Source of the DNA: an uncultured Bacteroidota bacterium
Lineage (GTDB): Bacteria > Bacteroidota > Bacteroidia > Bacteroidales > GCA-2748055
Assembly: GCA_937129385.1 (NCBI GenBank)
Contig: CAKZNC010000005.1
Location: 1 to 49,583, forward strand
Direction of reading: 5' to 3'
DNA length: 49,583 bases
How positions within the stretch are numbered: position 1 is the first letter of the stretch; each line of letters opens with the position of its first letter. Position numbers and translations under genes: made by a program. Shown piece by piece: positions 17,319-26,266 of the stretch. The notes under the pieces were generated by a model. That model ran no database searches and was not told the origin of the DNA. It worked only from the letters and a program-made list of their open reading frames with translations.

Positions 17319-17921
17319 TTACCAGGATAATGGGGATCCAAACATCCCGTTGCCAAACGGGTAGCCGTAATAGGGCCTGTCGGTCCGGTGAATCGATGCT
17401 CCAATGGAAAAGTTACCAAAATCATAGGTGGCACCCACAGAAAAATCATAATACTCCAGGGCACGCAATTCGTTCCCCTCGGGGAGCATGGCAAAACTTT
17501 TTACGCCTGTTCCATGTATATACAGGTTTTCAGAGACCCGGTAGGAAGCGGAGGCAAATGCGGAGATACCTGTAAATCCATTGAAATTCGAGATTTCACC
17601 AGCTCCTGCATTCATAAGCGGTGTGGTCCTGGAGACCATGAGTCCGCCGTGGAATGCCAGTCGATCACTGGCTGCATAGCTGACATGCGGTGCAGTGTAC
17701 AACTGCATTGCTGATCCGAACCAGGGGCTGTAACTGAAACTTGTACCAACGGAGGTGCTGAGTGACCACGGACTGATATGCCGGGGTGGTGCAGGTGTTT
17801 GGACCGCAGATTTCACACTGTCGATCTCATTCCATATCCTGGCTACCGGGTCCTGGCTTTGAAGCGCCAGCGGTATGGTCAGTAAAACGAGCGTGATGAT
17901 ATGTTTGCTGTGTCTCTTCAT
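17319..17921 (-). CDS. Putative small outer-membrane beta-barrel protein
   Basis: A 200-residue exported protein. The ATG at 17921 gives a signal peptide (MKRHSKHIITLVLLTIPLAL, cleaved near LQSQ). A longer frame to 18032 adds 37 residues without a signal sequence. The mature part alternates polar and hydrophobic residues and is rich in Gly, Ser, Phe and Tyr (TSVGTSFSYSPWFGSAMQLY, ISAFASASYRVSENLYIHG), as in small outer-membrane barrels. The C-terminal stretch YGYPFGNGMFGSPLSW is unusually Gly/Pro/aromatic. Upstream, TATCTTTA matches seven of eight positions of the -7 consensus. It is followed by the truncated PrsW-like gene. No specific family was recognised. Confidence 0.75.
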   Translation of the reverse strand: MKRHSKHIITLVLLTIPLALQSQDPVARIWNEIDSVKSAVQTPAPPRHISPWSLSTSVGTSFSYSPWFGSAMQLYTAPHVSYAASDRLAFHGGLMVSRTTPLMNAGAGEISNFNGFTGISAFASASYRVSENLYIHGTGVKSFAMLPEGNELRALEYYDFSVGATYDFGNFSIGASIHRTDRPYYGYPFGNGMFGSPLSW

Positions 17922-23924: not shown

Positions 23925-25790
23925 TTAATTGAAATCTATTGATATTCCGCCCATCACGTTGATCCCGGGCATGGGATAGCCCCATACGGTTTCATATTCC
24001 TGGTTCAGGAGGTTTTTGCCTGCCACGAAAAGGGCGAGTCCGTCCAGCACATTGTACATTGCCTTGGCATCCATGAGTGTATAGGATTGCCTGACATCGT
24101 CTGAACTATCCACATTGCTGATGAAGGTATACAGACCTGAAACCTGTTTGACATTCAGTGCCAGCATGAATTTTCCCATGGTATAGACAGCCCCGACATA
24201 CAGCTGGTTCTCAGGAGAGAAGTAGCGTGGTGAATCCATATTGAGGTAACTGTATGAAAGATCCACCTTCAGATCCTGTACGGGCTCATATGTAGCCTCC
24301 ACCTCAACCCCGTAGTTTGTAAATGCCCCGCCATTGCCCCTGATCATCGGCGGTCCAGGATTGGGATTGGGTGCCATGGTGATCAGGTTTGAACCGTTGA
24401 TCATATAGCCGGTAACATTCAGTATACCTGAATATCCAAAACGCTGGGCATAGGAAAGTTCGTAATTCCACAACTGTTCCGGACCGAGATCTGCATTGGG
24501 TGCAAATAGGTACATTTCCATGATAGTCGGACTTCGAAAACCCTTGGACACCAATCCCTTGAAAGTTGTCCCCTGGACTGGCGTCACGGTGAGTCCCACC
24601 TGCGGAACAATTTCGCCTCCGAAATTGGAATGTTGCTCATACCGGGCACCGGCCGAAAGGGTCAGCAGGTTACCGATCTCCTGCTCAGCGAGCAGATAGC
24701 CGGCCGTTTCATTGACCGTGAGGAAGGTGTCTGCAAAAAATCCAAATGATCCTTCACCTCCGTAGTTTTTTACATCAAATCCGGCTGTGAGCAACGCTCC
24801 GGCCCAGGGCTTATATGCCTGGTAGACGTTCACCCCTTTGTTGACGTCATCGGACACCCATCCATCGGAAAAACTGTGATACCCTGTATTTATGAATGCA
24901 TAGATCCCTCCCATTGTATTTGCATAGCTGTTTTTCAAGGAGAAGGTGGCCATCTGCCTGTTGATATCGCCCTTGAAGGTCAGTTGCTCAAAACTCATGG
25001 TCGATCCGGGATCCATGAATGAATAATCGGCCCAGGTATACCCGATGCGGGCCGACCAGTTGGCGTCGATTTGGTATCCGGCGTAGGCATGCAAATTGGT
25101 GATATTGAAATCGGTGCTGTCACGATGACCATCGGTCTGGTTGTGATTGAAATTCACTCCCACAAAGAACCGGTCTCTCGTGTAGCCCACAGAAGCTCCC
25201 GTCTTCAGTGTGTTGAATGATCCATACGCTGCATGACCGCTCACATTAAGACCCTGTTTGGTATGTTGTTTTGTAATTACGTTGATGACACCCCCCATGG
25301 CATTGGAACCGTAGAGCAGGGATGCAGGTCCCCTGACAACCTCGACGCGTTCCACGTTGGAAGCCATGTGAAAATTGGGCAGCGGATGTCCGAAGACTCC
25401 CATATACTGTGGCTGACCGTCCACCAGCATCATGACGCGGGCATTGGGGGAACCTCCAACACCCCTGATGGAGATCTGTCCCGATGTGCCATTTCCGAGT
25501 GCATAACCTGCCACACCGATCTCACTGACGAACAGGCTCGGTGTGGTCCTGGCAACAACGGGGAGGATATTGGCCTCCTCCTGGCTCCTGATCTCGTCAC
25601 TGGTGATCACCGAGATGGACTGAGGGACACTTACTTTTGTAACTTCTACCCTGTTCCCGGAAATCACCACCTCGTTGATGTTGATGGTATCTGTAGGCTC
25701 AGCAGCAGATGCTGTAAGCGTGCCGGTTACAAGTGCGAAGATCAACAACTTCTTTTTCAATGGTACTTTCAGTCTGCTAGTCATTATCAT
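23925..25790 (-). CDS. TonB-dependent receptor, probable outer-membrane nickel (or nickel-chelate) importer
   Basis: A 621-residue outer-membrane receptor of the vitamin B12/siderophore size class, without carboxypeptidase-regulatory or STN domains. The signal peptide ends near residue 30 (TGTLTASAA). The N-terminus of the mature protein, INEVVISGNRVEV, resembles a TonB box region. The plug has QISIRGVGGSPNARVMMLVD and VERVEVVRGPASLLYGSNAM. The barrel ends with KNLLNQEYETVWGYPMPGIN and a C-terminal aromatic residue (MGGISIDFN). The gene starts 13 nt after nikR and ends at a strong terminator, so it is in the NikR operon. NikR-controlled TonB receptors are known in other bacteria (for example FrpB4 of Helicobacter), which supports nickel as cargo; this is inference from context. 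Confidence 0.9.
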   Translation of the reverse strand: MIMTSRLKVPLKKKLLIFALVTGTLTASAAEPTDTININEVVISGNRVEVTKVSVPQSISVITSDEIRSQEEANILPVVARTTPSLFVSEIGVAGYALGNGTSGQISIRGVGGSPNARVMMLVDGQPQYMGVFGHPLPNFHMASNVERVEVVRGPASLLYGSNAMGGVINVITKQHTKQGLNVSGHAAYGSFNTLKTGASVGYTRDRFFVGVNFNHNQTDGHRDSTDFNITNLHAYAGYQIDANWSARIGYTWADYSFMDPGSTMSFEQLTFKGDINRQMATFSLKNSYANTMGGIYAFINTGYHSFSDGWVSDDVNKGVNVYQAYKPWAGALLTAGFDVKNYGGEGSFGFFADTFLTVNETAGYLLAEQEIGNLLTLSAGARYEQHSNFGGEIVPQVGLTVTPVQGTTFKGLVSKGFRSPTIMEMYLFAPNADLGPEQLWNYELSYAQRFGYSGILNVTGYMINGSNLITMAPNPNPGPPMIRGNGGAFTNYGVEVEATYEPVQDLKVDLSYSYLNMDSPRYFSPENQLYVGAVYTMGKFMLALNVKQVSGLYTFISNVDSSDDVRQSYTLMDAKAMYNVLDGLALFVAGKNLLNQEYETVWGYPMPGINVMGGISIDFN

Positions 25791-25803: not shown

Positions 25804-26208
25804 TTAATCGTCTGTTCCGCTCATGACGAGCTCAACATTCTTGATCCCTTTCAATCCCTTGTACTTGTTCCGCAATTTGATCAGCTTGTGCGCCTTTCCC
25901 CTTACAGTAATTACTTCCAGGCAGTTATGCTCATCGAGATGGATATGCTGACCGGAAAGGATCAGGCAATTGTAATTGTGCTGGATGGCGTTCACCTCCT
26001 TGTGCAGTTCCAGCTTGCTGTGGTCATAGACCACAACCACAGCCCCCGCCACTTCTTCATCGGAATTCCATTTCTGTTCAACGATGCTTTTCTTCACCAG
26101 GTACCCGATGGCCCTGGACCTGTTTGGATAGTTGTCCCGCTCTACCAGCTGATCCAGCTCGCTGAGCACATCCTCCTCCAGGCTCACTCCAAATCTTTTC
26201 AACGACAT
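25804..26208 (-). CDS. nikR: Nickel-responsive transcriptional regulator NikR
   Basis: A 134-residue ribbon-helix-helix repressor that binds DNA when loaded with nickel. The N-terminal ribbon-helix-helix covers about 1-45 (LKRFGVSLEEDVLSELDQLV, then NRSRAIGYLV). The ACT-like metal-binding domain covers about 53-130. The four square-planar nickel ligands of the E. coli protein (His76, His87, His89, Cys95) are matched by His77, His88, His90 and Cys96, in HNYNCLILSGQHIHLDEHNC. Length is typical. It is the first gene of an operon with a TonB-dependent receptor. Its own promoter is overlapped by a direct repeat, suggesting autoregulation. Confidence 0.97.
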   Translation of the reverse strand: MSLKRFGVSLEEDVLSELDQLVERDNYPNRSRAIGYLVKKSIVEQKWNSDEEVAGAVVVVYDHSKLELHKEVNAIQHNYNCLILSGQHIHLDEHNCLEVITVRGKAHKLIKLRNKYKGLKGIKNVELVMSGTDD

Positions 26209-26237
26209 CGTGCTACGTTTTATAATTTCGTGCTACG
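26208..26237 (-). promoter_or_regulatory. 10-bp direct repeat over the nikR start region, candidate NikR operator
   Basis: On the minus strand CGTAGCACGA occurs twice (26237-26228 and 26217-26208) separated by exactly 10 nt, giving a 20-bp period, about two helical turns. The first copy overlaps the end of the -7 box; the second runs into the A of the nikR ATG. The core GTAGCAC resembles operator half-sites proposed for other NikR proteins, but here the copies are direct rather than inverted. Confidence 0.6.
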
Positions 26238-26266
26238 AAAATAGTAGTTTCTTCAGAAAAGCCAAA
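26236..26266 (-). promoter_or_regulatory. nikR promoter: TTTG, 19 nt, TATTTTCG
   Basis: On the minus strand TTTG (26266-26263) is followed after exactly 19 nt by TATTTTCG (26243-26236). This is the Bacteroidota -33/-7 pattern with one mismatch in the -7 box. Transcription should begin near 26230, leaving a leader of about 20 nt. Confidence 0.75.

Follow-up and report, generated by a model that had tools for sequence, protein, structure and literature searches.

A tandem pair of half-sites over the nikR promoter of an uncultured Bacteroidota bacterium is probably an orientation variant of the known NikR operator

Results

A repeated element at the start of nikR

The window analysed here is a 49,583-nucleotide stretch of DNA from an uncultured Bacteroidota bacterium, and it carries on its minus strand a nikR gene (25804..26208) encoding a ribbon–helix–helix nickel repressor of 134 amino acids. 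The product matches PF08753 with 86 bits (cut-off 22, residues 54–129) and the NikR equivalog NF003381 with 135.5 bits (cut-off 105, residues 2–132), matches solved NikR structures with E values down to 3.1e-30, and aligns with the solved chain 2bj1 over residues 1–132 and with 2ca9 over residues 2–129, which we take to be the NikR chains of P. horikoshii and H. pylori, respectively. The ribbon–helix–helix domain and the NikR_C nickel domain together extend across the whole protein. Residues H77, H88, H90, and C96 (window numbering), presumably the nickel ligands (three histidines and one cysteine), are invariant in a six-sequence alignment that was given without the window's first codon. The presumed DNA-reading strand has the form R-[FI]-[GS]-[VI]-S in all 119 distinct NikR proteins compared below; in the window it reads R-F-G-V-S, unlike the R-x-T-x-T that we take to be the recognition strand of E. 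coli NikR.

A TonB-dependent receptor gene (23925..25790, minus strand; 621 amino acids, PF00593 and PF07715) starts 13 bp after nikR, and the two are presumably on one transcript. The best NCBIfam matches of the receptor lie far below cut-off; its cargo may be nickel. A co-directional receptor homologue starts within 500 nt after nikR at 27 of the 114 related loci that have at least 700 nt of downstream sequence, a count from which more divergent receptors would escape, and 19 of these 27 are among the 64 operator-bearing rows described below (60 of the 64 having enough sequence).

Two exact copies of CGTAGCACGA stand on the minus (nikR) strand at 26208-26217 and 26228-26237, 20 bp from start to start; on the plus strand the same copies read TCGTGCTACG. 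The downstream copy ends on an A that is also the first letter of the nikR ATG, and the original prediction of a repeat with a 20-bp period, lying over the nikR promoter and running into the start codon, is thereby confirmed with coordinates read off the sequence itself. It is the only exact 10-mer repeat in the window at a spacing of exactly 20 (mean 0.0 in 20 shuffles), and one of four at any spacing from 12 to 40 (shuffled mean 1.7). The degenerate pattern CGTRGCACGA-N8..12-CGTRGCACGA has this single match in the 4.28-Mb genome of the organism, and none in the reversed control. Taken by itself the 10-mer repeat is only mildly unusual, and its significance comes from its place and its conservation.

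The unit that relatives keep is a 7-mer, GTAGCAC (26210-26216 and 26230-26236); the 10-mer first proposed as the repeat unit is thus present exactly, but it is not what is conserved. The upstream (left) putative NikR half-site (26230..26236, minus strand) fits GTRNYAC at −28 from the ATG, and the downstream (right) putative half-site (26210..26216, minus strand) occupies −8 to −2. Together they make up a predicted operator, GTAGCAC-N13-GTAGCAC, of 27 bp (26210..26236, minus strand), the length of the published NikR signal, placed before nikR and the receptor gene; it is the only zero-mismatch place of its spacing with supporting gene context in the organism's genome.

The left half adjoins a promoter. 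A Bacteroidota-type −7 box, TATTTTCG (26236..26243, minus strand), has five of the six fixed letters of TAnnTTTG, which we take to be the Bacteroidota −7 consensus, and its final base doubles as the first of the left half-site. A TTTG at 26263..26266 (minus strand), 19 bp before the −7 box, is a possible −33 element. The TTTG-N19-TATTTTCG promoter proposed from the sequence alone was accordingly found on the minus strand, with 19 bases between its elements and with the repeat overlapping it. Among the 64 related operators described below, 37 have a TAnnTTTG match (at least five of six letters) whose end coincides with the left half's first base, and none of 25 other offsets gives more than six. 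Support in relatives for the −33 TTTG is weak: it stands 18 to 20 bp before the −7 box in nine of the 40 operators whose −7 match is at least four of six (three, four, and two cases for spacers of 18, 19, and 20).

The core and spacing recur before nikR in relatives

Related NikR loci were drawn from a contig search, from which 80 of 132 loci were taken; from 198 genomes of the order, of which 46 had a match (at least four of these short or broken), giving 29 loci beyond the window's own; and from the family, where 21 of 28 genomes had a match and gave 20 further loci. The resulting 129 loci (the organism's own locus, L084, being excluded) and the window yield 119 distinct proteins. Their upstream regions were scanned, without regard to direction, for a pair of GTRNYAC words with a period of 20 or 21 bp, placed at −32 to −26 relative to the start codon. 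The pair GTRNYAC-N13/14-GTRNYAC was found with no mismatch in 26 regions, with one in 38, with two in five, and with three or more in 50, against 0.00, 0.00, and 0.34 expected for zero, one, and two mismatches from 50 shuffles of each region. The pair is thus held with at most one mismatch by 64 of 119 regions, and no site within two mismatches was found at that place in the remaining 50 of the 119 that score three or more.

The 64 regions with at most one mismatch, to which the orientation counts and the tree below are restricted, are closely anchored: the right half begins at −8 in 56 of them, with a 20-bp period in 35 of the 64 and a 21-bp period in 29. Of the 38 single mismatches, 27 affect the outer G, 10 the outer C, and one R3; T2, Y5, and A6 are always kept, an invariance that is partly built in by a selection filter that prescribes the core. 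The comparison suggests that the degenerate palindromic core TRNYA is what is conserved. At one locus (L013) the site adjoins an upstream ATG, which leaves the start codon used in doubt. At another (L027:3850-3986) the nikR start has no adjoining site, and a GTGTCAC-like pair lies about 100–130 bp upstream, perhaps serving a divergent gene.

Close relatives keep the place and vary the letters. The window's genus is represented by four genomes, with nikR in the window's own and two others; the fourth genome is 68% complete. The relative whose NikR is 89% identical has GTAGCAC-N13-GTAACAC, and the one whose NikR is 87% identical has GTGGCAC-N13-GTGTTAT, both at the same distance from the ATG, so that core and spacing are kept in both species and the exact repeat in neither. 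Two Nitrospirae loci (L073 and L080) carry GTAGCAC-N13-GTAGCAC, the window's exact half-sites.

Half-site direction looks free, and direct pairs cluster on the tree

We read the direction of a half-site from letters 3 and 5, scoring A..C as '<', G..T as '>', and G..C or A..T as symmetric. The 64 left halves comprise 28 '<', 16 '>', 18 G..C, one A..T, and one other, and the 64 right halves 46 '<', four '>', 11 G..C, and three A..T. The rarity of A..T half-sites (one left and three right), beside common G..C ones, gives the impression that each dimer needs at least one quarter-site with GTG. As pairs, 25 are direct (24 '<<' and one '>>'), nine inverted, one everted, and 29 with one or both halves unoriented; when the two halves are compared simply letter by letter, the direct arrangement fits better in 33 and the inverted in 16, with 15 tied.

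Re-dealing the right halves among the left gave a mean of 21.1 direct pairs, with P = 0.06 for the observed 25 or more; when ten rows of one related genus were removed, 15 direct pairs stood against 13.2 expected (P = 0.27). Direct pairs therefore show no clear excess, and their frequency is about what independent halves would give. On a quickly built tree of the 64 NikR proteins, left direction among the 44 oriented rows requires at least 11 changes (mean 13.3, minimum 10, in 200 shuffles), and direct-or-not requires 11 (shuffled mean 20.1, minimum 16). The state of being direct turns over often but clusters on the tree, and orientation is not wholly random. Half-site direction looks evolutionarily free.

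Sites elsewhere in the genome and in the order

In the organism's own genome the strict pair pattern, which is its own reverse complement, occurs at four places against five in the reversed control; allowing one mismatch at period 20 gives 17 per strand, where the control has 25 and 28. A wider NikR regulon in this genome was rejected, as counts do not rise above control and supporting context is found at the nikR site only; a further place in the window, 17428-17454, is likewise not claimed as a NikR site, one-mismatch matches not exceeding control. No further half-site pair was detected beside the nikR operator in this genome, and searches of it with PF00374 ([NiFe]-hydrogenase) and PF01891 (CbiM/NikM) found none of either. 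A second, weak NikR_C match (22.1 bits) lies at L003:1501-1707 (contig C102:35699-35905, minus strand), and corresponds to a TM1266-family putative regulator of iron-only hydrogenase systems (TIGR03959, 86.1 bits, cut-off 60.8).

Across the 198 genomes of the order, perfect GTAACAC/GTGTTAC pairs occur in direct form in 24 genomes, inverted in eight, and everted in eight, against 27, seven, and four genomes with a hit in the reversed control; the direct, inverted, and everted counts are 10, four, and six for the 46 genomes with a NikR match and 14, four, and two for the 152 without. Since direct pairs are no commoner than in the control, only sites with gene context were used, and the argument from receptor genes depends on that context. 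In NikR-bearing genomes, receptor genes are immediately preceded by perfect sites in direct (L174, L183, L188, L196), inverted (L203), or everted (L207, L208, L209) form, which indicates that no one orientation is tied to this kind of gene. Identity to the window's receptor is 32–40% for the receptors at L188, L203, and L207–L209, and at L183, L196, and L174 the match to it is partial.

Among the direct sites of NikR-bearing genomes that became loci, plausible targets follow L174, L178, L180, L183, L188, and L196, and no plausible target gene was found at L168, L173, L177, L181, L185, or L195. At L180 (1082-2867), an FmdE-domain protein, possibly a nickel-linked target, is encoded directly after nikR behind its own perfect direct NikR-type site. 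At L178 (1501-2194), a perfect direct site stands 19 bp before the gene of a 215-residue membrane-like protein that resembles a small permease and had no family match above cut-off. One genome with no NikR match (G090) has six perfect direct GTAACAC pairs on different contigs, maybe a dispersed repeat or the sites of another regulator.

Comparison with known NikR signals

The signal predicted for delta-proteobacterial NikR is GTGTTAC-[N13/14]-GTAACAC, and Table 4 of the same study lists inverted and everted pairs (GTAACAC-N13-GTGTTAC) together with a GTGccAC-[N13]-GTAACAC site that resembles many of those found here (PMC545781). Like the window's element, that signal has 7-bp halves of the GTRNYAC kind separated by N13 or N14; the delta-proteobacterial sites precede nickel genes. 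Each window half-site differs from GTAACAC at one position, and GTAGCAC-N13-GTAGCAC agrees with the consensus in half-site and spacing but not in being inverted, both halves pointing the same way. Direct pairing is absent from the sites of that table, and the element described here differs further in standing before nikR and a TonB receptor gene, abutting the start codon, in Bacteroidota. We treat direction as non-defining because PMC545781 lists everted sites and because 25 of the 64 related operators are direct. The statement in the original prediction that characterised NikR sites are inverted repeats was too strict in light of these predicted everted sites.

In H. pylori, NikR recognizes the pentamers TRTTA and TAWTA, which are separated by 15 nt and together approximate a TRWYA dyad, and the 20 nt between their centres accord with one tetramer lying over two helix turns (PMC5385501); by our count the H. 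pylori ureA probe of PMC4464171 holds TAACA-N15-TAATA. The window's element shares the TRNYA core and the centre distance with the H. pylori operator, and it differs in that the H. pylori consensus does not include the outer G and C and that the H. pylori receptor responds within a much larger regulon (PMC5385501). By our own comparison of the letters, the degenerate palindrome of the H. pylori core returns in TRNYA, the inner five letters of GTRNYAC. The E. coli operator, GTATGA-N16-TCATAC, likewise has two NikR-bound half-sites about two helix turns apart, although these are inverted and of other sequence (PMC7055735). Among the titles and abstract openings listed for NikR direct repeats or half-sites, none describes a direct NikR site; work on Geobacter uraniireducens NikR or on the E. 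coli NikR–operator structure may contain one.

Discussion

Published signals with the same core and spacing (PMC545781, PMC5385501) lead us to read the repeat as the autoregulatory operator of nikR and its receptor gene, bound by one NikR tetramer, with its tandem look being one of several roughly equivalent orientations; from comparative evidence we would give this reading a probability of roughly 0.85. The direct orientation would most likely be a recurrent variant of the known NikR operator, for which a second tetramer is not needed. That a NikR operator overlies the nikR promoter, as the original prediction had it, is strongly supported by the 64 of 119 upstream regions that share it; its further suggestion of a new architecture or of two tetramers finds no support, the length, spacing, and half-site being those of the published signals (PMC545781, PMC5385501). 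The proposed check on conservation divided similarly: the direct orientation does recur, in kind, before nikR and receptor genes elsewhere, but the two other genus species with nikR lack the exact repeat and direct pairs are in no clear excess.

NikR is a tetramer with two dimeric ribbon–helix–helix domains (PMC4486848). One nickel-loaded tetramer would insert its two dimers into the major groove at the two 7-bp half-sites, which lie 20 bp, or two helical turns, apart and would place both dimers on one face of the DNA. Bound in this way, NikR would lie over the −7 box and the transcription start, extend as far as the start codon, and block RNA polymerase, turning nikR and the TonB receptor off when nickel is plentiful; here we infer the binding, its nickel dependence, the single tetramer, and the repression. 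A ribbon–helix–helix dimer is nearly two-fold symmetric, and a palindromic degenerate half-site should therefore be readable either way: the half-site G-TRNYA-C would be such a palindrome, with an apparent direction arising from letters 3 and 5 only.

The main competitor is a distinct direct-repeat NikR operator, in which both dimers dock the same way, the overall dyad is broken, and the direct form is kept by selection. The 24 '<<' pairs among the 64, spread over Bacteroidota and Nitrospirae and with 11 species rows coming from one related genus, speak for it, as do the clustering of direct-or-not on the tree (11 changes against 20.1) and the Nitrospirae loci with the window's exact half-sites. 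We nonetheless consider it decidedly unlikely for this operator, given that direct pairs are near the number expected of independent halves (P = 0.06, or 0.27 without the ten rows of one genus), that the site is different in the genus's two other nikR-bearing species, in one of which the right half is reversed, and that receptor genes show all three orientations. An unlikely prospect is that several lineages, the window's family among them, maintain a true direct-repeat operator, a non-dyad site on which the two dimers of one tetramer face the same way, with half-site direction tuning affinity or cooperativity.

Two NikR tetramers side by side, each repeat belonging to a full site of its own, had been offered as a second reading of the element. 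The repeat itself, and nothing else, favours such an arrangement, which we regard as highly improbable, since the 27-bp element has the length of one published two-half NikR site (PMC545781), the 20-nt centre distance is tied to one tetramer (PMC5385501), and no additional half-site pair accompanies it in the genome. We also give very little credence to an accidental repeat, or to one that serves another regulator or the promoter only: the window does hold other exact 10-mer repeats at spacings of 12-40 (four against 1.7 in shuffles) and the genome no second copy above noise, but position-anchored conservation before nikR (64 of 119, against 0.00 from shuffles) and the match to a NikR signal that was published independently (PMC545781) both argue against it.

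If the one-tetramer reading with free half-site direction is true, the inverted repeat in the written NikR consensus would be partly incidental, and what is conserved would be a palindromic TRNYA core at a period of 20–21 bp whose direction is largely free. The delta-proteobacterial, Bacteroidota, Nitrospirae, and H. pylori signals would then be joined in one model. Site prediction would improve, as searches for dyads only would miss direct sites, and the locus would offer a clean experimental test of the way in which asymmetric half-sites are read by a symmetric dimer.
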